Source: Nitrospirota bacterium (GTDB taxonomy: Bacteria; Nitrospirota; Thermodesulfovibrionia; Thermodesulfovibrionales; Dissulfurispiraceae). Taken from it: a stretch of 35,662 bases of DNA. Numbering within the stretch: the first letter of the stretch is position 1; every line of letters starts with the position of its first letter. A program made the position numbers and the translations under genes. The notes beneath the pieces were generated by a model, which did not search any database, was not told where the DNA came from, and saw nothing but the letters and a program-made list of their open reading frames with translations. Positions 696 to 22,576 of the stretch are shown here, in pieces. The stretch spans positions 1 through 35,662 of the forward strand of contig SCQE01000035.1 in NCBI GenBank assembly GCA_004321915.1, written 5' to 3'.

Positions 696-962
696 ATGAC
701 GAGTTTTTCTATCGAAAACGTAACACACGGCAAAACACCGTACCATGATGAGACACCATGTCCTTTCATAAACGCCAAAATCGAGATTTGCACGGCGGCC
801 GTTTCTCTTCTGAAGACCGACGAGCATAGGCGCAGGTTTTATTGCGATACGGATGACTATGACAACTGTCCGTTTTTTATTTCTAAGTCGCTCAGGAGTT
901 GCATAGATGTTAACTTTTCAACATGGACAGCCGAAGAAGCTCCGGCACATATTGAACCGTAG
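696..962 (+). CDS. Small cysteine-containing hypothetical protein, 88 aa
   Basis: The start follows AAAAGGAGG at 682-690 and directly abuts the preceding stop. The protein has a CPF-x6-C spacing near residue 22, then YC and NCPFF around residues 50-60. This pattern is common in small metal-binding or disulphide proteins of unknown role, but I cannot name a family. The last third overlaps the 3' end of the convergent acyltransferase gene by 106 bp, and the cysteine core lies mostly before the overlap. Either the overlap is real or one gene is shorter in life. There is no signal peptide. Confidence 0.55.
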   Translation: MTSFSIENVTHGKTPYHDETPCPFINAKIEICTAAVSLLKTDEHRRRFYCDTDDYDNCPFFISKSLRSCIDVNFSTWTAEEAPAHIEP

Positions 963-1771
963 TCCCCGCATAAGGAATATTCCCGCACACGCATCCGCAG
1001 CAAACCTTTCCCGATACTCACCCTCGCCAACCACGAAAGCCTCTTTCTCGCATAAGCGGTCCCTTGATCGGTCATGTCCTCTAAGATAGTCCGGTTGAAA
1101 CTCAGCGCTGCATCTATCCGTCCGAGACCGAGAAGCGCCATCAGATGGGGCAGCAAGGCCATATCTCCATACCATGCGACAGGACATACGCCTCCGTCAT
1201 TGTCTTCTGTTCCGTAAGCAAGGCTCACAGGTATGACCTTAACGCCCAAAGCAGCCGGTATATTGAAAAAGGCGTTCTTGAATTGGAGCAGCCCGTTACC
1301 GTCGCCTGTGGTGCCTTCCGGAAATACGATTACGTTCACGCCAGCGTCTATGGCCTTCTTTATATCTTTCATTGCATCGATCGCCGATTTCGCGGATCCC
1401 CTGTTTATAAATATGGTCCCGGCAAGCCTTGCCAACCAGCCGAACATAGGCCAGCTTCCCATTTCCTCTTTGGCCACAAACAACGTCGGCCTGATCCCCG
1501 CTAAAACTGCTATGTCAATGTAGCTGATATGATTGCAGACCGTAAAACCGCTCTGCATAAAACTCTCTCCGCTCAGAGATATGCGTATGCCCAATATGCG
1601 GCACATCGTCTTGGCCCAGAGCATCGAACAGTAAGCCCTCGCCCGTATCAGTCCCTCTTCGTCCCAAAAGAAGAGGCTGTTCGCCGCAATGCCGACAAAC
1701 AGGAAAAGCGTATTGGCTGTCCCGAGCAATACGCACCTGTAAAGCTTGCTGAATAAAGCCGGAACGCTCAT
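857..1771 (-). CDS. olsA: Lyso-ornithine lipid O-acyltransferase / PlsC-type acyltransferase
   Basis: This is a member of the PlsC (1-acylglycerol-3-phosphate acyltransferase) superfamily, about 304 aa. An N-terminal hydrophobic stretch (residues about 10-35) anchors it in the inner membrane. The catalytic HX4D box is NHISYID, block II contains FINRG, and block III is FPEGTTGDG. These enzymes transfer a fatty acyl group to a lipid hydroxyl. It overlaps the GNAT acyltransferase gene upstream by ATGA. That pairing is the usual OlsB-OlsA arrangement, in which OlsA esterifies lyso-ornithine lipid. The OlsA assignment therefore rests mainly on context, and phosphatidic acid synthesis remains possible. 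The 3' end overlaps a convergent small gene. Confidence 0.8.
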   Translation of the reverse strand: MSVPALFSKLYRCVLLGTANTLFLFVGIAANSLFFWDEEGLIRARAYCSMLWAKTMCRILGIRISLSGESFMQSGFTVCNHISYIDIAVLAGIRPTLFVAKEEMGSWPMFGWLARLAGTIFINRGSAKSAIDAMKDIKKAIDAGVNVIVFPEGTTGDGNGLLQFKNAFFNIPAALGVKVIPVSLAYGTEDNDGGVCPVAWYGDMALLPHLMALLGLGRIDAALSFNRTILEDMTDQGTAYARKRLSWLARVSIGKGLLRMRVREYSLCGDYGSICAGASSAVHVEKLTSMQLLSDLEIKNGQLS

Positions 1772-2562
1772 ACAAAATAATGTCGTTTATACCGGTCGAG
1801 TATCTTGTCCCTGTCGAGGATAATGAGCAGGTCGGACACCCCGAACTGCTCGTCAAGGGCCGGTTCTCCCGCTATCCGAGCCCCGAGACGCAGGTATGCG
1901 CTCAAAAGCGGAGGCATTTGCTCAGCCACCGCTTTTTTGTCGAACGGAGCGTCCGGATCGAACCCGGGGACCCTTTTAATGGGTGTTACTCTAAAACGCT
2001 CCCCGGTCAAATAGCGCGTCTTCAAGTATGAATAAATACCGCTCACCAGCAAAGGATTGATAGTGTGGATGCTCCCGCATCCGAAGAGATGGCCTATCCT
2101 GTGTTCCTCGATGTATCGCGCTATCCCGGACCACATAAGGTTCAGCGTAGCAGAGCCGCGATAGGCATGGCGGACGCACGCACGCCCGAGTTCAACCTTT
2201 TCTCCTTCGATCCTTTTAATTGCCGACAGTTCAAATTCCGTTTCGGAATAAAAGCCGGGGCCCCGTTCCGCCCTTGAGCCCGGCAGCAGTCTATAAGCTC
2301 CTACTACCATGTCTTTTTCAGTATCCATTACGATGATATGATCGCAGTATTCATCGTATTCGTCCGTGTCCATGCCGGTAAGGTAGGAAGCCTGCAGTCC
2401 TTCATTCAATTCGAGATTAAAAACCTCGAACCGCAACCGCATAGCAGCCTCCATCTCCGCATAGCTTTCCGCCCGTTTTACTATCAACCTTGCCGTAGAA
2501 CTCTGCCTTGCAGGGACCATTTCTTCGATTACGCTTGAAGCGGCCGTTTGCGCTTTAGTCAT
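1768..2562 (-). CDS. olsB: L-ornithine N-alpha-acyltransferase (OlsB-like GNAT)
   Basis: This is a 264-aa GNAT-fold acyltransferase of the Acetyltransf_5/OlsB type, which makes lyso-ornithine lipid from ornithine and a 3-hydroxyacyl-ACP. Visible hallmarks are the RLRFEVFNLELNEG segment near residue 42, the VVGAYRLLP strand, VELGRACVRHAYRG around residue 126, and FGCGSIHTINP around residue 168, all typical of this family. The start is supported by AAGGAGG 5 nt upstream. No membrane segment is visible, and the enzyme probably acts at the inner membrane surface with the PlsC-type partner whose start overlaps its stop. The last gene of the preceding module, a GT21 glycosyltransferase, ends only 16 bp upstream. 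Confidence 0.82.
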   Translation of the reverse strand: MTKAQTAASSVIEEMVPARQSSTARLIVKRAESYAEMEAAMRLRFEVFNLELNEGLQASYLTGMDTDEYDEYCDHIIVMDTEKDMVVGAYRLLPGSRAERGPGFYSETEFELSAIKRIEGEKVELGRACVRHAYRGSATLNLMWSGIARYIEEHRIGHLFGCGSIHTINPLLVSGIYSYLKTRYLTGERFRVTPIKRVPGFDPDAPFDKKAVAEQMPPLLSAYLRLGARIAGEPALDEQFGVSDLLIILDRDKILDRYKRHYFV

Positions 2563-2578
2563 GAATCCTCCTTTTGTT

Positions 2579-3793
2579 TTAAGCGTTATTGATCCTCAAA
2601 GAACTGAACAGCCTGTCTCTCAATACCCAGAATCCGGTATCGGGATACGGAGATATAACGGAATCCTTTCCTATCGCATAACGGTTTCCCCTCCACACTA
2701 CGGTATTGCTGAAAAGAGGGACAAACCAAACAACTCCGATAATGATGTCTTTCAGCGGGACCAATAAGTACAAAAGAGGCGACATGTCCGTTCCTGTATT
2801 TTTTGCGAGATGGTAATCGCCGGCCGCCTTTGCCGCGCTCACGCAGAGCGAAAACAAAACGGTCAATGCCGAAGCCTCCCACAGAAGCACAGGGAGCGCC
2901 GAAAGAAACACAGGATTCACAAGCAGCTCCGACAAATATTTCACGCCGCCGATCTTCCACCTGAGCTTGCCCCACCGGGTATGCCTGTTTAGGAACCTCC
3001 CGAGTCCCCAATACTCGTTTACGTTTTCGACAGCATGACCTGAAAGCGCCACCTTCCAGCCCGCTTCCGAGATTTTTCTACCGATAATGAAGTCTTCTGC
3101 GAGAACGTTCTTAAACGCTTGCAAGCCGCCTATCGACTCAAGGACATCTTTTTTCATTAGCATAGATTTGCCGATAACGCAGGGCATGCCCAGAAATTTA
3201 TCGAGAAAACAGACGCTCCCGATGACAAAAGAATTCATGTGCAAATTCTCGAATATGGATGCGAGGGTCCTGCCTCTCACCCCTTTTATAATATTGGTAA
3301 CGAGCCCCACGGAGGGGTCGGACATGCACGCAACGGTTTCCTTTAAATAATCCCTGTCGGCAAGAACATTGCTGTCGCTTATAAGAATATAGTCGTACGC
3401 AGCCGCTTTATATGCGGGTATAAGGTTGTTTACTTTAGGGTTAAGTCCGTCCTCCCGCTGCCCGACTATTATGGAGATGTTCCTGTCCTTATATTTTTCT
3501 TTCACCTTTCTCGCCACTTTGTATGCCGGATCGTTATGGTCCTGAAGCGCAAATATAAGCTCGTACGAAGGATAGTCCTGCACGCAAAAACTGGACAGGT
3601 TGTCAAAAAGGTTGTCGTCGATGCCTTTAAGCGGCTTGAGGACCGAGACCGGAGGACAAAAAAAACGGGGAAGGGTTTCCCCTTCCCCAGAGCAGGGGGT
3701 AGAAAGAGAACAGCGTTTAGCCGCCGTTATTTGAAGCCAACAGCATATAAGTCCTACGAACGAAAGGAACGAGAAAAACAAGAAAACGCTCAT
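2579..3793 (-). CDS. GT21-type (ceramide glucosyltransferase/HpnI-like) membrane glycosyltransferase
   Basis: This 404-aa enzyme has an N-terminal membrane segment (residues 3-22), a GT-A domain and a C-terminal hydrophobic region (about 290-360). GT21 signatures are present: SVLKPLKG (50-57), the SDSN metal site (139-142), AED (232-234) and the (Q/R)xxRW box as RHTRW (270-274). The family transfers glucose or related sugars from UDP-sugar to a membrane lipid: ceramide, diacylglycerol, or hopanoid in HpnI. No hopanoid genes are nearby. The neighbouring lipid kinase and OlsBA point to a membrane glycolipid product, which is inference. AGGAGGG precedes the start. It follows the PHP gene by 8 bp. 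Confidence 0.82.
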   Translation of the reverse strand: MSVFLFFSFLSFVGLICCWLQITAAKRCSLSTPCSGEGETLPRFFCPPVSVLKPLKGIDDNLFDNLSSFCVQDYPSYELIFALQDHNDPAYKVARKVKEKYKDRNISIIVGQREDGLNPKVNNLIPAYKAAAYDYILISDSNVLADRDYLKETVACMSDPSVGLVTNIIKGVRGRTLASIFENLHMNSFVIGSVCFLDKFLGMPCVIGKSMLMKKDVLESIGGLQAFKNVLAEDFIIGRKISEAGWKVALSGHAVENVNEYWGLGRFLNRHTRWGKLRWKIGGVKYLSELLVNPVFLSALPVLLWEASALTVLFSLCVSAAKAAGDYHLAKNTGTDMSPLLYLLVPLKDIIIGVVWFVPLFSNTVVWRGNRYAIGKDSVISPYPDTGFWVLRDRLFSSLRINNA

Positions 3794-3801
3794 CTGCCCT
3801 C

Positions 3802-4494
3802 CTAATTTCTGAACAGGGTTATCGCAACCCCTTTGTTATGCCTTATACAGTTTTTTACCGAACCCGCGTCTTTTTCGCAGTTCAAAAGCGTCTTCCAAGA
3901 GTAAAGGTGCCTTGCCCTGTGAAAATCGCTGTTGGCAATATACGGATACCTCTTCAGACTTATCACATTGAACACGTCGTCCCTGTTCGCGATCTCCCAC
4001 GCGTCGATATATTTTGCGTATTTGTCCCTGTTGTTCCAGAGAAACAGCGTGTCCCTGTCGGTCCTCGGGGACATGTGGTGGGGATGGCAGGCGATGGTCA
4101 GGGCGTCCTGCTTTTTAGCTTCGAGGAATATCTTTTCACAGCTAAGACCGGCAGGTATAAAATCCTTTATATCGATCACAAGGATATGTGCGGATTTATC
4201 TGAAGAAAGGTAATTCTTGCTTATCTCGATGCCGGGTAGCACGAGCATTTCGTATTTTTCCCATGCGCGTTCACATTCGCTCTTCAGTTCCGACATATAT
4301 TCGCCGAAGTTATTTTCGGTCACAGAAAACCTGAATCTGTTGGCGAGCATACCTATGGAACTGTCCCCGTTCACCACATGGTCCGTTATGGCAATCACAT
4401 CAAACCCCGCTTGTCCGTAAAGTTCAACCACCCTTCTCATGCTGACAGCTCCGTCAGAGTATTTCGTGTGTATATGGAAGTCGCATAAAAGCAT
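3802..4494 (-). CDS. PHP-domain metal-dependent phosphoesterase
   Basis: The 230-aa protein starts with the first PHP motif, FHIHTKYSDG (His7, His9), followed by AITDH (about 36-40), CHPHH in the middle and NSDFH near residue 187. Together these supply the His/Asp cluster that binds two or three metals in PHP phosphoesterases. It is a stand-alone domain like the YciV/TrpH group rather than a polymerase module, and its substrate is unknown. Placement between a lipid kinase and a lipid glycosyltransferase suggests a phosphate-releasing step on a lipid headgroup or nucleotide, but this is a guess. It is separated from the upstream lipid kinase by 59 bp, the largest gap in this unit. Confidence 0.8.
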   Translation of the reverse strand: MLLCDFHIHTKYSDGAVSMRRVVELYGQAGFDVIAITDHVVNGDSSIGMLANRFRFSVTENNFGEYMSELKSECERAWEKYEMLVLPGIEISKNYLSSDKSAHILVIDIKDFIPAGLSCEKIFLEAKKQDALTIACHPHHMSPRTDRDTLFLWNNRDKYAKYIDAWEIANRDDVFNVISLKRYPYIANSDFHRARHLYSWKTLLNCEKDAGSVKNCIRHNKGVAITLFRN

Positions 4495-4553
4495 CTGCTG
4501 AAATGATAGAATTTTCAGGATTACGGGAATATTAAGGCGTTGTGAAGTTTTCG

Positions 4554-5453
4554 TTAATTAGCGGACGTGACCAAATTTAAGGCGGAACCGGCTATACGTA
4601 TATCCACAGGAAGGCGCCCGAAATAATCACCGTCGATCTGGACCGGAGATTCCCCCTCGATACGCACACTTGCGGCAGCAAAACAGCTCACGTCGTGAAA
4701 TCCGAGATGTCTCCCGCTCAATACCCCGGATATATAGCGCACCATGTCGGACCTTGAACCCCCATGCGCCGCAAAGACATACAGCGAGGGCTCTGTAATT
4801 CTAGCAGCAGGGGCCACATGAAAACCGCCTCCATAAAAGGATGATTTGCAGATCACCGCGTGGTAACATTCAAACTCTGTCGGCGCCGGTGTTTCGGCCA
4901 CAAGCTTTATTTTGCAGTATTCGGAGGAAGCGAGCGTTTTAAGGCCGCTGAATATATAGGCGCCTTTGCCGACAAACTTCTTGAGGCCTTCATTGACGCC
5001 TTGCACCGCCATTGCGTCGAAACCGACACCCGCCATCAAGAGGAAACAGCGTTCTACGCCTGCCGCAGTGATTATTGCGGGGTGCGCGGCACTGGAAGTC
5101 CCGTTCAATATTAACTCGCAGCATTCCGCTAAACCCGACGGGAGTTTCAGCTCCCTAGCAAGCACCGAGGTTGTTCCGGCAGGCAATATAGCCATCGGGA
5201 CACCCGAATAAATCAGACCGTTAGCAACTTCGTTATAAGTGCCGTCGCCTCCCGCGGCAACAACGACAATGTCCGCATCGTCACCGAATCTATCGGCGAT
5301 AGACAATGCAAACTCCTCGGCATCGCCCTTTCTGCAAGTAAGCAGCGTCTCAACCGAAGCCCTTCCGCCAAGAAGCTCTGCGGCCCGCTTTATTTTTTCG
5401 GAAGCGCCTTTGCCTGCAACGGGGTTTCCTATCAAAAAAATATGTTTTTTCAA
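4554..5453 (-). CDS. YegS/BmrU-type diacylglycerol/lipid kinase
   Basis: This 299-aa protein fits the DAGK catalytic family. NPVAGKG at residues 10-16 and GGDGTYNEVANGL at 68-80 form the nucleotide-binding loops, and the C-terminal half has the beta-sandwich pattern ending in VQIDGDYF. These enzymes phosphorylate diacylglycerol, undecaprenol or sphingoid-type lipids at the inner membrane, and the substrate cannot be told from sequence. It overlaps the upstream glycosidase gene by ATGA, so expression is probably coupled. In this setting it could recycle diacylglycerol to phosphatidic acid, or compete with the glycosyltransferase for diacylglycerol (inference). Confidence 0.85.
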   Translation of the reverse strand: MKKHIFLIGNPVAGKGASEKIKRAAELLGGRASVETLLTCRKGDAEEFALSIADRFGDDADIVVVAAGGDGTYNEVANGLIYSGVPMAILPAGTTSVLARELKLPSGLAECCELILNGTSSAAHPAIITAAGVERCFLLMAGVGFDAMAVQGVNEGLKKFVGKGAYIFSGLKTLASSEYCKIKLVAETPAPTEFECYHAVICKSSFYGGGFHVAPAARITEPSLYVFAAHGGSRSDMVRYISGVLSGRHLGFHDVSCFAAASVRIEGESPVQIDGDYFGRLPVDIRIAGSALNLVTSAN

Positions 5454-6724
5454 ATCCCGTTCTTTCTAATCCTGCTCTTGATTATGTATGCGTAATATTT
5501 TGCTGCGTTCGTGGGAGTGCGTTCCAAGGTCGAGAAATCGACTTTATACAGGCCGAAACGCGCATCCAGACCCTGCAGCCATTCGTAGTTGTCGATAAGC
5601 GACCAGTAAAAAAAACCCCTGACATCCATACCGTCGGCAAGACAATGTTCGAGAACATCTATATGTCTTTTCAAGAATTTCGTCTTTTTATGGTCGTCGC
5701 GCGTCGCTATCCCGTTTTCGGTTATTATAAGCGGGACCTTGAGTTTAGAGGCATACCTCAGCACCTTGGCGAGTCCGCGCGGATGGACCTCCCATCCCAT
5801 ATCGGTCAGCCCGTGGCCGTCTATGTCCCTATGTCTCATCTCTATACCCATCTTCTTCAACGGATTGAACCTTAGATGCACCCGCATATAATAATTCACC
5901 CCGAAAAAGTCTATCTTGTTTTTTATAGGAACGTCCATTTCGAGAGGCCTGCAGAAAGGAAGAGACACCTTCAGTTTCCCGTCCATGAAAGCGTCGAGCA
6001 GGGAATGGTTGTAAAAATATTTTGCTATCCTTACAAGGAGGCGGTCCAACGGGTTCCAACGCTTCCAAGGCGCAAGCGCCGCCATATTATGGGCCACGCT
6101 CACCATTGCCAAGGGGTTTATAGAGTGAATAATGTCATACATACGGCCGTGGCACTCCAGAATATTTCTGAGCGCCTTTAATCCGAACGCTGCATTACGC
6201 AATCCCGGAGGAGAACAGCCTTCTAAATACCCTGCGAGTATCAGCACATAAGGCTCATTGAACGTTATCCAATATTTAACGCCCCGCAGCGTTGAAATAA
6301 TCCTCCCGGCAAAAAGCATAAATTTCTCAACGGACACATCTTCATGCCATGGATATTTCTTTATAAACCAGAGAGGATGAGTGAAATGATGGATCGTGAC
6401 CATAGGCTCGATGTTATTTTCTATAAGCGTATCTATAATGTCCTGATAATGCGCCACAGCCTCGTCGTCCCACACATGCTCTCTGGGCTGTATCCTGCTC
6501 CACTCGATAGAGAAGCGGTAGGCATTGACCCCCAGCTCTTTTAAGAGCTTAAGGTCTTCCTTGTAGAGCGCATAGTGGTTCGTTATGTCCGGGTTAGCGC
6601 TGAGCAGGTCGTCCCATGAGGTCCAGTCCGCATGAGAGGAACCTTCAAGCTGAAAGGCCGAGGTCGCCACACCCCAAAGAAATCGGTTGTCGGCGCCTTT
6701 AGTTCTACAATCATCCGCTTTCAC
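5450..6724 (-). CDS. Glycoside hydrolase family 1 (beta-glucosidase-like)
   Basis: This is a full-length GH1 (424 aa) with the TIM-barrel landmarks FLWGVATSAFQLEG (15-28), the acid/base glutamate in TFNEPY (Glu157) and the nucleophile in IITENG (Glu336), plus FYWSLIDNYEW near 372. No signal peptide is visible, so it is predicted cytoplasmic. GH1 enzymes hydrolyse beta-linked glycosides, and some act in transglycosylation. It overlaps both neighbours by ATGA, an unusually tight coupling to a c-di-GMP protein and a lipid kinase. Cytoplasmic location next to a glucosyltransferase suggests turnover or remodelling of a glucosyl product rather than sugar scavenging (inference). Confidence 0.88.
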   Translation of the reverse strand: MKADDCRTKGADNRFLWGVATSAFQLEGSSHADWTSWDDLLSANPDITNHYALYKEDLKLLKELGVNAYRFSIEWSRIQPREHVWDDEAVAHYQDIIDTLIENNIEPMVTIHHFTHPLWFIKKYPWHEDVSVEKFMLFAGRIISTLRGVKYWITFNEPYVLILAGYLEGCSPPGLRNAAFGLKALRNILECHGRMYDIIHSINPLAMVSVAHNMAALAPWKRWNPLDRLLVRIAKYFYNHSLLDAFMDGKLKVSLPFCRPLEMDVPIKNKIDFFGVNYYMRVHLRFNPLKKMGIEMRHRDIDGHGLTDMGWEVHPRGLAKVLRYASKLKVPLIITENGIATRDDHKKTKFLKRHIDVLEHCLADGMDVRGFFYWSLIDNYEWLQGLDARFGLYKVDFSTLERTPTNAAKYYAYIIKSRIRKNGI

Positions 6725-8577
6725 ATCAACCTGCGGTCCCTCACTATTGCAGAGCGTCCTTTTTCCGAGGACTGTTTTTTAGAGGCGCTCTTCACCTCTA
6801 CAGCGCGGGAAGCAAGCTGGGCATAAGAATCTATAGAATGGACCTCGGTGCTGACAATGCCTATCGAAACCGTAAGCAATCTGAAGATCTCATCTTCATC
6901 CTTCCGGTTCTTTGCGGTATAGAAGCCCCTGCTGTAATCAACCGCTCCGTGGAAAACAGGCTGCATGGATTCAAAATCACGAACGACCCTTTCTGCTGCC
7001 TGCAATGCGGCCTGAGGTCTTGCAATGAATATAAAATCGTCTCCCCCTATATGCCCGACAAAGTCCAGACCGTCATTCATATAAGACTCCATCGTATCGG
7101 ACAATATCTTTGCGAGGGACTTGATTACAAAGTCCCCGCGTTCAAAACCGTAATAATCGTTGTAGGGCTTAAACCAATTTATGTCCACATATACCACGTC
7201 AAAATGTATGTTATGCGCTATTTTCTTCTCAATTTCCCTCTGTATGGCCTCGTTCCCGGGCAGGCCTGTAAGCGGATTGGCGCCCTTGGCCAGTATTATG
7301 CTCTTACCTGTAATCGCATCCAGAAGGCTGCTTACGGAGACCAAGCCGAAATATTTGCCGTTTTTCGTTACACAGATATCGTCGTACATAAAATCAGGTT
7401 TTCTCCTCTGGACCATATGCGCCACATCTTCGATAGTAGTATTGTCATCGACCGAAAGAAATGCGGTTTCCATCACATGCCCTATGTTTTTGTGCGAGTT
7501 CAGATGTACGCCGTAACCGAACTTGCCGACCACTTGGTCCTCTATAAACCTGCTCCTGTACAACATGCCCACAAGCCTTTCCCTGTCGACTATCGGTAAA
7601 CTCTTCAGGCATGAGTCGTCTATGAACATATTAAGCGCGTTCTTTATGGATGTGTCCGAATTAATAGACCCAACCCTGATTGCAACATCGCCTATAAAAT
7701 CCATTGCAGGTGAATATTTATCGGACGCAGGTACCCTCTTGCTGTCGAGAAACGTTACTGCGGACGGTCCATAGTCCAGCGAGGCTGATGGTCTGGAAAG
7801 AAGAAAACCCTGTATCAGTTCTATGCCCATGTCGAGGACGATATTAAGTTCATCCTCGGTTTCCACGCCCTCCGCAATGACCTTGATGCCCATTCTGTGG
7901 CATGCCGTTGCAATAGAATCTACAAGGGTGTATTTGACCATGGCCTTGTCAATGTTCGATATAAAGTGCCTGTCTATCTTCACAAATTCCGGCTCGATCA
8001 TCGAAAGCATCTTCAGCCCTCCGTATCCGGCCCCGAAGTCGTCTATTGCTATCCTGTAGCCGGCCTTCCTGTAATAGTTTATCGTTTCCTGAAAAAGTTT
8101 ATAGTTGTGGATAGCGCCGTTTTCGGTGATCTCCAAGATTATCCGCTCCTTTGCAACCCCCCATTCCTCGGCCAAGCTGTCCGTGACCCCGACCGAGTGC
8201 GTGGGATCGAGAATGCTTTCAGGGCAGATATTGATAAAGAGAGACGCTTGCGTATTGCTCAAACCGAGCAAGGCCGCCTCCTTGATGGCATTCTCCCTGC
8301 ATTTCATGTCGAGAGAGGCTATTATCTTGGCCTGCTTCGCCCTTTCAAAAAGATCGGGGATATTGTCCAACACCTCGCCGTTTCTGGATCTTAGCAATGC
8401 CTCGTATCCGAAGGCCGAACAGCTCTTGGCCGAAAAAATCGGCTGATAATGAGAGGTCAGAATGTCCCCTTCTATCAGATCGAGCAACTGATTTCTGGAA
8501 GCCGCAACAATATTAGAACTGCCGCTGACAGCCTCTTCGTTTTTAAATTCCCACTTTAGCCTTACCGACGAATTCAT
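6721..8577 (-). CDS. EAL-CBS-GGDEF c-di-GMP signalling protein
   Basis: This 618-aa soluble protein has three parts: EAL phosphodiesterase (about 30-270), a CBS pair (about 295-425) and GGDEF (about 433-600). EAL residues appear complete: YEALLR (59-61 is EAL), NICPES, LEITEN, IDDFGAG, VKID, AEGVET and QGFLL. The GGDEF box is GGDDF (511-515), a functional variant. Both activities could be intact, with CBS domains sensing an adenosyl ligand. AGGAGG sits just upstream of the ATG. It is the first gene of a minus-strand unit, and the glycosidase gene starts inside its stop codon. A regulatory array lies upstream between this gene and the divergent cobalamin gene. Confidence 0.92.
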   Translation of the reverse strand: MNSSVRLKWEFKNEEAVSGSSNIVAASRNQLLDLIEGDILTSHYQPIFSAKSCSAFGYEALLRSRNGEVLDNIPDLFERAKQAKIIASLDMKCRENAIKEAALLGLSNTQASLFINICPESILDPTHSVGVTDSLAEEWGVAKERIILEITENGAIHNYKLFQETINYYRKAGYRIAIDDFGAGYGGLKMLSMIEPEFVKIDRHFISNIDKAMVKYTLVDSIATACHRMGIKVIAEGVETEDELNIVLDMGIELIQGFLLSRPSASLDYGPSAVTFLDSKRVPASDKYSPAMDFIGDVAIRVGSINSDTSIKNALNMFIDDSCLKSLPIVDRERLVGMLYRSRFIEDQVVGKFGYGVHLNSHKNIGHVMETAFLSVDDNTTIEDVAHMVQRRKPDFMYDDICVTKNGKYFGLVSVSSLLDAITGKSIILAKGANPLTGLPGNEAIQREIEKKIAHNIHFDVVYVDINWFKPYNDYYGFERGDFVIKSLAKILSDTMESYMNDGLDFVGHIGGDDFIFIARPQAALQAAERVVRDFESMQPVFHGAVDYSRGFYTAKNRKDEDEIFRLLTVSIGIVSTEVHSIDSYAQLASRAVEVKSASKKQSSEKGRSAIVRDRRLM

Positions 8578-8608: not shown

Positions 8609-8652
8609 AGTTTAACGTTCCGGAGGTTAAAGCATGATTAAGGTAATGTTAA
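8609..8652 (-). promoter_or_regulatory. Pho-box-like direct repeat array upstream of the lipid/c-di-GMP unit
   Basis: Read on the minus strand, TTAACA (8652-8647), TTAATC (8641-8636) and TTAACC (8630-8625) recur with exact 11-bp period. Ten bases further on is TAAACT (8614-8609), which matches a -10 at four of six positions. Phase-spaced 11-bp direct repeats are the mark of OmpR/PhoB-family response regulator sites, and TTAACA-like hexamers with 5-nt spacers match the Bacillus PhoP box. The regulator and the direction of control are not shown. The repeat could equally serve the divergent cobalamin gene. Confidence 0.35.
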
Positions 8653-8673
8653 AAATCGGCGTTGCCTCGATTT

Positions 8674-19841: not shown

Positions 19842-20318
19842 ATGAAAAGAGAAAAACAAAAAGCATACGCGCCTTCCTGCGACTGGACAGCCCCGTCAAA
19901 ACCTGAAGCGGTCACAGAGAATAAAGACAGGATCCACCGTTACAAAGGCGACGGTAAATGGTCCGGCGTTAAAACCGAAAAATATAAAAACCAAAACGGA
20001 GGCTGGGCCTCGATAGTCAGAAATGTTCTGATAGGAAACTGCGGGGAATCGGCAAAATTCCACCTCCGCTACTTCGAAATAGCCCCCGGAGGATTCAGCA
20101 GTCTTGAGCGACACAAGCACGAACATGTAGTGGTCTGCATTAGAGGCAAAGGCAAAATTCAAGTCGGCAGAAAACAATATACCCTCAACTTTTTAGATAC
20201 GGCTTACATAGCCCCTGACACAGCACATCAACTCTTAAACCACTATGACAACCCGTTCGGTTTTTTCTGCATCGTAAATGCGAAGAGGGACAGGCCTAAA
20301 CCCGTAAAAAAAGCTTAA
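19842..20318 (+). CDS. Cupin-domain protein, 158 aa
   Basis: The C-terminal half (about 70-150) is a single cupin barrel: RYFEIAPGGFSSLERHKHEH, then VVCIRGKGKIQVG, and the second motif AYIAPDTAHQLLN. The His-x-His-x3-like ligands (HKHEH and a later His) suggest a bound metal. The first 65 residues are basic and contain KWSGVKTEKY. The substrate is unknown. It converges with the caspase gene, and the two stop codons overlap within the palindrome TTAA at 20315-20318. Confidence 0.8.
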   Translation: MKREKQKAYAPSCDWTAPSKPEAVTENKDRIHRYKGDGKWSGVKTEKYKNQNGGWASIVRNVLIGNCGESAKFHLRYFEIAPGGFSSLERHKHEHVVVCIRGKGKIQVGRKQYTLNFLDTAYIAPDTAHQLLNHYDNPFGFFCIVNAKRDRPKPVKKA

Positions 20319-22576
20319 TAAAGTTCGCCGAACTTGCGTTCGTCTATCTTTCCTTCAAGGAACGCTTCGAGAATCTTGGATTTCACCGAAGCCTTAAGCT
20401 CGTCAACGCTCTTGCTCAACTGGTCGGCAGTGATAAGGCCTTTTTCAAAGGCGGCTTTGAGTTTGGACTTTGCAATGTCGACATCCATGATTTTCGCCCT
20501 CTCCCAGTTGCGCGTTACAGGAAAGTTTCCGGTCCCTGCAATCTGCGGCACCTGTTCGACACCCTTCAGTTTTCTGACAGCCTTCGGCACGTTTTCTTTT
20601 ATATAGTTTGCGATGTCATCGACCCTGACCCATACATCTTTGTTCGCCCTGCCCGTAAGACTCTCGATAAAATAATGGCTGAAGATGCCTGATTTAAGCT
20701 CTGTCTCGTCCTCCCACGATTGCTGGTTTACGGCCGAAGAGGTAATAATGACTTTCTGCAGGCCTTGGACCTTTATCAATTCGGACGAAGCCATCATGCC
20801 CACCAAAGGTTTGCCGCCCTTCGGTATAATAGACTTGCCCCCTCCGGTAAAGCAGGCGTCCAGCGCGACCATAACGCCTTTGGCCTGTGAAGAATCAACG
20901 AGTTCTTTGAGATATGATATTTTTATGCTCGTGTCTTCCATAGCTTCGGGATCGGTTATCACCGCATCGTAAGGCACCAGAAAGCCGTCCGAAAATTTAT
21001 CGTCCTTGGTCTTGGGCGCCCCGTGTCCGGAATAATAGACATAAACATAACCGTCCCAGTTTTTTACCTTTCTCAACGCAGCCACCATCTCGTTTCTGGT
21101 CGCCTTCTCATTAAGAAGCAACGTGACATTCTCCTGCGGGATGCCCCCGTAATAAGGGTCTGTAAATATATCGTATACTTTCTTTGCGTCGTTCGCCGCG
21201 AACTGAAGATTCGGAATATCATGCCTGCCATTGTAGTCGATGCCTATTATTACCGCATATGTGTCCGGACGCAAAGGCGCGGCCTTGTCCTCAACCACCG
21301 GTTTAAACGAAGTCTTTTGCTGCGGAACCAAAGAGGTGTATGTCCTGCCGCCTTTCTTTTTAGCGAGGACCGGCGCTACAAGCTCCTCCTGCTCCATGCG
21401 TATCTCGGCAGAACCGATACGTATCTTAACGTCCCTCTCGACGCCCTCCCTGAGTATCCTCATCGAGGCGGTCATTCCGGGCGACAGCACCCTTACCTTA
21501 TTAAAAAAATCAGCGTCGTCTTTGATCGCTTCATTGTTCACGCTCAAAAGTATATCGCCCTGCATTACTCCCGCATTCTCGGCAGGCCCGCCTTTAGTCA
21601 CTCCCTCGACCTCAACGCCGGTTATTACGCCCTTGCTGTAACTCTTCGAGTTTACTCCCACCATCCCCCTGCCGCCCCTGTACTGCCACGCTTTCGCCTT
21701 ATCGCCCATGGCATAGTACATCATCGAATGTTCATAACTCGTGTCGTATTCCAATATTTCTTTCGCCTTTTTTATGAAGCCGAATGCTGTCTCCGCGTCT
21801 CCCAGACCGAGATATGACCAAGCCTTGCCCCTGTAATACCACTGAAGGTTCGTCTTATCATCAGGCTTTGCCGATTCTAAAATCTTGTTGAAATCCCTCA
21901 ACGATTCCTCGAAATTGCCGAGGAAGTAGTTCGACCAAGCCCTGCCGGGGAAGGAATAGTTCATCTTGGGGTCAAGCTGGATGGCCTTGTTGAAATGTCT
22001 TAAGGCCTCGTCATATTTCTGCTTGTTATAATACGCCCACCCGAGGTTATTGTAGGTCGTTGCATCATCTTTCAACTCCAGCGCTTTTCTAAGGGACTCT
22101 ATGGCTTCGTCGTGCTGTTTGAGTTCATTATAGACATAGCCGAGGTCGGCATGAAAGAGAAACTGTTTGGGGTCAACCGCAATGGCCTCCTTCATAAGCG
22201 GGATAGCGGCCTTCAACTGATTTGAACCGCGCAGTTCCTCGAATAACGCATGGTACGAATCCTTTATCCCGTCCCAGCACTCTGTTTCGAGTTCCGCCCT
22301 TTGCGGCCTGTGTTCTAGCGCTTTTTTGTAGGCCTCGACAGCCTTGCGGTAGTTTTTGTTCTTATAATATGCATGTCCCAACCATCGGTAATGGTTGCTG
22401 TATCCGCTGATATTCGGAGCGTAAGAAACAACCTCCGGCATGGTCCAGTAATTGATTGCGAGCTGATATTGCCCCCGGTCATACGCGCCCTTTCCTTCGA
22501 GCCAATAACCGGAAGGGGATATGCAACTTGAGAGTAAGAGAACAAACAGCAGAGAGAAGAACAGGCTTCGCCTCAT
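20315..22576 (-). CDS. Lipoprotein with TPR repeats, PDZ domain and C14-type caspase domain
   Basis: This 753-aa protein has a signal peptide with lipobox LSSC (Cys18). TPR repeats occupy about 30-295, with AAxYNNLGWAYY-type units. A PDZ-like domain (about 305-390) carries GGPAENAGVMQGDILLSVN. A caspase/metacaspase domain (about 435-690) holds His518 in YYSGHGA and Cys575 in ALDACFTG, the intact dyad. A C-terminal helical tail (about 698-753) looks like two SHOCT-like units. It is the last gene of a four-gene unit and starts 6 bp after the TPR/LysM gene. A proteolytic effector or processing protease at the envelope is implied by the dyad, but substrates are unknown. Confidence 0.88.
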   Translation of the reverse strand: MRRSLFFSLLFVLLLSSCISPSGYWLEGKGAYDRGQYQLAINYWTMPEVVSYAPNISGYSNHYRWLGHAYYKNKNYRKAVEAYKKALEHRPQRAELETECWDGIKDSYHALFEELRGSNQLKAAIPLMKEAIAVDPKQFLFHADLGYVYNELKQHDEAIESLRKALELKDDATTYNNLGWAYYNKQKYDEALRHFNKAIQLDPKMNYSFPGRAWSNYFLGNFEESLRDFNKILESAKPDDKTNLQWYYRGKAWSYLGLGDAETAFGFIKKAKEILEYDTSYEHSMMYYAMGDKAKAWQYRGGRGMVGVNSKSYSKGVITGVEVEGVTKGGPAENAGVMQGDILLSVNNEAIKDDADFFNKVRVLSPGMTASMRILREGVERDVKIRIGSAEIRMEQEELVAPVLAKKKGGRTYTSLVPQQKTSFKPVVEDKAAPLRPDTYAVIIGIDYNGRHDIPNLQFAANDAKKVYDIFTDPYYGGIPQENVTLLLNEKATRNEMVAALRKVKNWDGYVYVYYSGHGAPKTKDDKFSDGFLVPYDAVITDPEAMEDTSIKISYLKELVDSSQAKGVMVALDACFTGGGKSIIPKGGKPLVGMMASSELIKVQGLQKVIITSSAVNQQSWEDETELKSGIFSHYFIESLTGRANKDVWVRVDDIANYIKENVPKAVRKLKGVEQVPQIAGTGNFPVTRNWERAKIMDVDIAKSKLKAAFEKGLITADQLSKSVDELKASVKSKILEAFLEGKIDERKFGELY

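Follow-up and report, generated by a model that had tools for sequence, protein, structure and literature searches.

A run of seven contiguous open reading frames on the minus strand of a Nitrospirota contig (positions 8577 to 857 of SCQE01000035.1, 35,662 nucleotides, the whole of which we refer to as the window) probably constitutes a PhoB-activated operon for membrane remodelling under phosphate starvation, in which phospholipid would give way to glycolipid and ornithine lipid. From the first gene to the last, these frames encode an EAL-CBS-GGDEF protein, a retaining beta-glycosidase of family GH1, a YegS-like lipid kinase, a phosphoesterase of the PHP family, a glycosyltransferase of family GT21, OlsB and OlsA. 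The replacement of membrane lipids during phosphate starvation is itself a known response; what is new here is the obligate pairing of PHP and GT21, the association of this pair with GH1 and the presence of a predicted phosphodiesterase for cyclic di-GMP (c-di-GMP) in the same presumably regulated unit.

Gene order and the conserved PHP-GT21 pair

The window, contig C60 in our numbering, is part of a 3.6-Mb draft genome that is 99.6% complete and whose relatives are Nitrospirota, chiefly Thermodesulfovibrionia. Conservation was analyzed in two samples, a phylum-wide set of 246 Nitrospirota genomes and a closer set of 40 relatives; genomes are labelled G (G000 being the window genome), loci L and contigs C. 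The PHP protein (3802..4494, minus strand, as are all genes described below) belongs to the TM0559 subfamily of metal-dependent phosphoesterases (Pfam PHP, 33 bits; 1e-74 to TM0559, PDB 2anu), and its neighbor GT21 (2579..3793; Pfam Glyco_transf_21, 160 bits) is a lipid glycosyltransferase of the ceramide-glucosyltransferase family. Orthologues of PHP, 67-100% identical, were observed in 46 of the 246 genomes and orthologues of GT21 in the identical 46, and in every one of these the two share contig and strand, GT21 always directly following PHP, with 12-290 nt between the match ends. A genome of the genus Thermodesulfovibrio is among the carriers of the pair (L030). As far as our literature search reached, the pair seems not to have been described before, and the combination of PHP domain, glycolipid and phosphate limitation returned no match. 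The sole locus examined outside the Nitrospirota, L023, lies on a contig that is labelled Syntrophaceae and may be misbinned.

The GH1 gene (5450..6724, GTG start; Pfam 8.7e-83, 279 bits; motifs TFNEP and ITENG) is the usual companion of this core. An orthologue is present in 23 of the 26 relatives with PHP and/or GT21 versus 1 of the remaining 14 (p = 6e-7), mostly located directly upstream of PHP-GT21, and the EAL-CBS-GGDEF gene often adjoins. Genome G013 has GH1 but no PHP-GT21 pair; a Pho-box-like site follows GH1 at 158 bp from the contig end, and no PHP start is visible between this site and the end of the contig. Full-length OlsB homologues were found in nine of the 40 relatives, all of them carrying PHP/GT21 (p = 0.011); in most of these OlsBA lies either on a different contig or, at a distance of a few kb, on the opposite strand. 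The lipid kinase, of the YegS/DgkB (diacylglycerol kinase) type (4554..5453, TTG start; Pfam DAGK_cat 78 bits, YegS_C 76 bits), exists as a single copy in the window genome; among the 39 other relatives, 35 carry it at unlinked loci, genomes without GT21 included. It is a general gene of the group and a late arrival in the operon, in an arrangement specific to the window genome. Note that the closest sampled relative, G001 of the same genus, is devoid of PHP, GT21, OlsB, GH1 and the lipid kinase.

An initial annotation had placed the seven genes contiguously on one strand, and all reading frames were indeed found in place, with their names confirmed by Pfam and NCBIfam. It had also listed ATGA overlaps at three junctions. 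There are three overlaps of 4 bp, but only the one between OlsB and OlsA reads ATGA, while those of EAL/GH1 and GH1/kinase read GTGA and TTGA owing to the GTG start of GH1 and the TTG start of the kinase; gaps of 59 nt (kinase-PHP), 8 nt (PHP-GT21) and 16 nt (GT21-OlsB) separate the other genes. Its proposal that the cluster exchanges phospholipid for phosphorus-free ornithine lipid and glycolipid is supported by the pst/pho neighbourhoods and PhoB-type promoters described below, but its view of the seven genes as one unit is not. The comparison of neighbourhoods, which it had suggested, revealed an invariant PHP-GT21 and a usual GH1, but a variable OlsBA and a kinase placement unique to this arrangement. 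With the kinase unlinked in 35/39 relatives and OlsBA elsewhere or inverted in most, a single conserved unit of all seven genes is ruled out.

Promoters and the input signal

In the relatives the PHP-GT21 pair is often located beside pstSCAB-phoU, PhoB/PhoR-like genes, psiE, phoA (alkaline phosphatase) or a gene for a YfcE-type phosphoesterase, and the window genome possesses its own phoBR-pstSCAB-phoU on contig C65. On this contig a protein of 123 amino acids is encoded just upstream of phoB (L059, 12429-12800). About 600 nt upstream of it two strong Pho-box-like sites overlap, scoring 14.1 and 13.0; similar proteins are found near OlsBA in relatives.

A scan with the classical E. coli Pho-box consensus yielded only scattered sites, none of them convincing at the promoters of the window, and the motif was therefore learned from the lineage itself. 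A Gibbs sampler, whose training set consisted only of 20 regions upstream of pstS and phoB-like genes, returned CTGTAACANNGCTGTAAC, a Pho-box-like 11-bp direct repeat with the half-site CTGTAAC/TTTAAC. Enrichment was then scored on upstream regions outside the training set against 204 other upstream regions. As evidenced by this analysis the motif is enriched before PHP (29 regions, p = 2e-14), EAL (14 regions, p = 1.5e-5) and olsB (4 regions, p = 0.001), and no enrichment was obtained before GT21, a gene internal to the transcription unit. In genome G021, GH1 leads a GH1-olsB-olsA cluster that has a Pho-box-like site of its own.

The top two sites of the whole window, both strands considered, lie before PHP and before EAL (8626-8643), against an expectation of 0.07 sites with such a score. 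The best match, CCTTAATATTCCCGTAAT at 4520..4537 on the minus strand, is an 11-bp repeat situated 43 nt before the PHP start and followed 11 nt downstream by TATCAT, and represents the predicted internal promoter of PHP-GT21(-olsBA). As both the Pho-box-like site and the -10-like element fall into the 59-nt gap between kinase and PHP, two promoters are more probable than one. Across the relatives a TATAAT-like element follows the box after 10-11 nt in 27 of 38 sites, and in several genomes 41-46 nt separate the box from the ATG. This geometry sets the transcription start almost at the ATG of PHP, which in the window is not preceded by a ribosome-binding site, and the PHP transcript is thus likely near-leaderless. 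Upstream of the EAL gene, three half-sites (TTTTAAC-ATTA-CCTTAAT-CATG-CTTTAAC) form an array at 8626..8654 on the minus strand that comprises the second (11.0) and third (8.3) best matches of the window. It is the predicted promoter of the operon, less certain than the one before PHP. From these sites we infer that the operon is under the control of PhoB.

The first gene (6721..8577) encodes a protein composed of EAL (Pfam 2.6e-51, 175 bits), CBS and GGDEF (58 bits) parts. The catalytic residues of the EAL domain are conserved (E59, N116, E149/E152, D179, D180, K200, E236 and Q256 in the numbering of the alignment's reference protein), and the GGDEF motif reads GGDDF/Y in nine out of nine full-length members, departing from GG[D/E]EF. 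An intact EAL domain combined with an altered GGDEF motif therefore predicts a c-di-GMP phosphodiesterase, which probably lowers c-di-GMP during starvation in the way RapA does. The initial annotation had taken c-di-GMP or a ligand of the CBS domains for the input that switches lipid composition, and the position of the gene as the first of the operon, its frequent proximity to the core in relatives and the fact that a GGDEF remnant and a CBS pair could sense GTP, c-di-GMP or adenylates are in line with this idea. Nevertheless we hold it to be quite improbable: the promoters are of the Pho type, the lipid enzymes of the operon show no c-di-GMP-binding domain recognised by Pfam, and the EAL gene is absent or inverted at many loci that keep PHP-GT21. 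For a Pho-regulated EAL phosphodiesterase that acts downstream, RapA of Pseudomonas provides a precedent (PMC3032545). We thus favour phosphate, sensed via PhoBR, as the predicted input signal, and since the EAL gene lies inside the regulated unit, c-di-GMP turnover is more likely to be an output of phosphate starvation than its trigger.

Lipid enzymes and the acceptor of GT21

GT21 matches the solved ceramide glucosyltransferase 26qf with 2.1e-49 (172 bits) as a single sequence and with 1e-68 as a profile, and retains the catalytic motifs D-D-D-RxxRW (D140 in DSN, D234 in AED, R270-H-T-R-W). The best NCBIfam model for the protein is HpnI (262 bits), in which case the cluster would produce sugar-modified hopanoids. 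This score, however, remains under the cut-off of 310 bits, no squalene-hopene cyclase was found in the 99.6% complete draft of the window genome, and the cyclase is missing in 18 of the 25 genomes that carry the operon-type GT21. A full-length cyclase is present in nine relatives, and these are exactly the nine that have a distant GT21 paralogue (about 30% identity), in seven cases on the same contig. The score below cut-off, the draft genome without cyclase and the separate paralogue that tracks the cyclase rule out, for the sequenced 99.6% of this genome, an assignment of GT21 as HpnI and leave the hopanoid reading with next to no probability.

A second alternative concerns ceramide, which GT21 would glucosylate as part of a glycosphingolipid pathway regulated by phosphate, as in Caulobacter. 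The nearest solved structure is a ceramide glucosyltransferase, phosphate-starved Caulobacter does contain a PhoB-controlled glycosphingolipid (PMC6445935), and a gene potential for sphingolipids has been reported in Thermodesulfovibrio (cited in PMC10667739). Against this stands the finding that the window genome has just one strong alpha-oxoamine synthase of the bioF/Spt type, which itself passes the bioF cut-off, leaving no candidate for a serine palmitoyltransferase; moreover, no sphingolipid gene was recognised among the scanned neighbours. Ceramide is therefore an unlikely acceptor. With these compounds excluded, and in view of its family and motifs, diacylglycerol is most likely the acceptor of GT21.

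OlsB (1768..2562; Pfam Acetyltransf_5, 111 bits) and OlsA (857..1771; Pfam Acyltransferase, 92 bits) are a predicted ornithine N-acyltransferase of the GNAT type and a predicted lyso-ornithine lipid O-acyltransferase of the PlsC type, adjacent and joined by an ATGA overlap. In NCBIfam the OlsB and OlsA models are by far the best for the two proteins (180 and 141 bits). In another class of Nitrospirota an OlsF-like fusion lies directly after GT21 (L020, L085 and L086, with L020 and L087 being one and the same contig). Counting OlsBA in the window, the PHP-GT21 core has thus acquired ornithine-lipid synthesis on at least two occasions and through different enzymes. This repeated joining is good evidence that the combination of PHP-GT21 with ornithine-lipid synthesis is functional.

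The GH1 protein keeps both catalytic glutamates and, by eye, has no obvious signal peptide. Its closest solved structure is 1vff, a beta-glycosidase from Pyrococcus horikoshii described as membrane-bound. The Pyrococcus enzyme prefers alkyl glucosides, and SFR2, a GH1 enzyme of plants, transfers galactose between galactolipids.

Role of the PHP protein and comparison with known systems

The PHP protein is about 40% identical to TM0559 of Thermotoga maritima over its full length, and residues H7, H9, D14, H39, E90, H103, H137, D190 and H192, of the metal-ligand type, are invariant in 29 sequences. A structure model of moderate quality (mean pLDDT 76) gave 2anu as first structural match, the nearest characterised folds being RNase AM and, with AMP and phosphate bound, a protein of the amidohydrolase family. 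That PHP is so strictly paired with a lipid glycosyltransferase, within a phosphate regulon, suggests a role like that of PlcP, or the recovery of phosphate from head groups. We tentatively propose, as one possible reading, that PHP acts inside the cell as a metal-dependent phospholipase C or phosphatidate phosphatase of a new kind and supplies GT21 with diacylglycerol, which would make PHP-GT21 an independently evolved counterpart of PlcP-Agt and GH1 a glycolipid transglycosidase. A serious contender, if still short of an even chance, is that PHP has no lipid substrate, recovers phosphate from soluble esters such as glycerol phosphate, phosphoethanolamine or nucleotides, and shares with GT21 only the need that arises in starvation. 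The substrates of known PHP enzymes are nucleic acids or small phosphate esters, the nearest characterised folds point the same way, and phosphate recovery suits the Pho setting. On the other hand, the strict one-to-one pairing with an adjacent GT21 in 46/46 genomes suggests that the two act in one pathway rather than only under one condition, and PstS, PhoA and the YfcE-type protein show no such pairing. The YfcE-type phosphoesterase was set aside as an obligate supplier of diacylglycerol, with close orthologues in only 11 of the 40 genomes; all 11 have the PHP-GT21 pair, and the gene often lies directly after GT21. The copy in G000 is located on a separate contig, C81 (L098, 3923-4639).

In the mechanism that we propose, low phosphate would cause PhoR/PhoB to switch on two promoters, before EAL and before PHP, as motif and geometry suggest. 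PHP, acting in the cytoplasm, would release diacylglycerol from phospholipid or phosphatidic acid, or remove phosphate from released head groups, and GT21 would form a glycolipid by adding the sugar of a UDP-sugar to a membrane lipid, with diacylglycerol as the likeliest acceptor. OlsB and OlsA, going by their families, would synthesize ornithine lipid; GH1 would most likely trim or transfer sugar on the glycolipid, the lipid kinase would return diacylglycerol to phosphatidic acid, and the EAL protein would lower c-di-GMP within the same starvation response.

Several observations weigh against this picture. Genome G009 has a GT21 without PHP (L077), and G003 carries an additional solitary copy of PHP (L083). 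Related genomes do not supply fully independent promoter samples, and in the window the box before EAL falls short of the pst boxes in strength and has no -10 element at the usual distance. The exclusion of other acceptors for GT21 rests on one draft genome of 99.6% completeness. OlsB and OlsA remain under the NCBIfam equivalog cut-offs (180 bits against 350, and 141 against 300), and TM0559, the closest solved relative of PHP, is functionally uncharacterised and has been listed without an assigned function (PMC2709924).

The closest parallel is PlcP-Agt of Sinorhizobium, SAR11, Methylosinus and Pseudomonas, where the gene of a phosphate-regulated phosphoesterase is likewise paired with that of a diacylglycerol glycosyltransferase, in the same order, and a phosphorus-free glycolipid is formed, often along with ornithine lipid. 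Agt, however, belongs to GT4 and the Nitrospirota enzyme to GT21, and PlcP is of the calcineurin type, whereas the neighbor of GT21 at this locus has the PHP fold. Pgt of Agrobacterium and Mesorhizobium is itself a GT21 enzyme with diacylglycerol as acceptor, the Agrobacterium gene has a predicted Pho box, and glycolipids appear in starvation alongside ornithine lipids, but these studies report no PHP partner, GH1 or EAL protein with pgt (PMC8231724, PMC3972451). The 4-bp overlap of olsB-olsA and the OlsF-like fusion after GT21 in relatives recall known OlsBA and OlsF; the window proteins differ in their scores below equivalog level and in being tied to the GT21-PHP pair. Under phosphate limitation the anaerobic sulfate reducer Desulfovibrio alaskensis G20 also replaces phospholipid by glycolipid and ornithine lipid, but with Agt (Dde_3613) and OlsF (Dde_3661) at unlinked loci and no mention of a PHP partner (PMC5193443). 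RapA of Pseudomonas fluorescens is a PhoB-controlled EAL phosphodiesterase that lowers c-di-GMP under phosphate starvation. It acts on adhesin release, whereas the Nitrospirota gene includes CBS and GGDEF parts and resides in an operon of lipid enzymes.

Phosphate-driven lipid replacement shapes the use of phosphorus in nature, and most of the genes described for it (PlcP, Agt, Pgt, OlsBA/F) are those of Proteobacteria and sulfate-reducing relatives. The present locus predicts such a response in the deep, largely uncultured phylum Nitrospirota, provides the uncharacterised TM0559 subfamily of phosphoesterases with an obligate partner and a relevant condition, and offers a gene-level hypothesis for the deep-subsurface glycolipids that have been linked by correlation to Thermodesulfovibrionia (PMC10667739).

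Some further features were noted outside the cluster. The solitary PHP gene of G003 (L083, 5492-6181) adjoins cas1-like and cas4-like reading frames, without GT21. Within the window no Rfam family and no tRNA was detected. Translations inspected by eye showed transposase-like, DUF262-like and DNA methyltransferase-like reading frames at the right contig end (31311-34420), and, at 20315-22576, a protein in which TPR-like repeats are combined with a PDZ-like part and a caspase-like domain.

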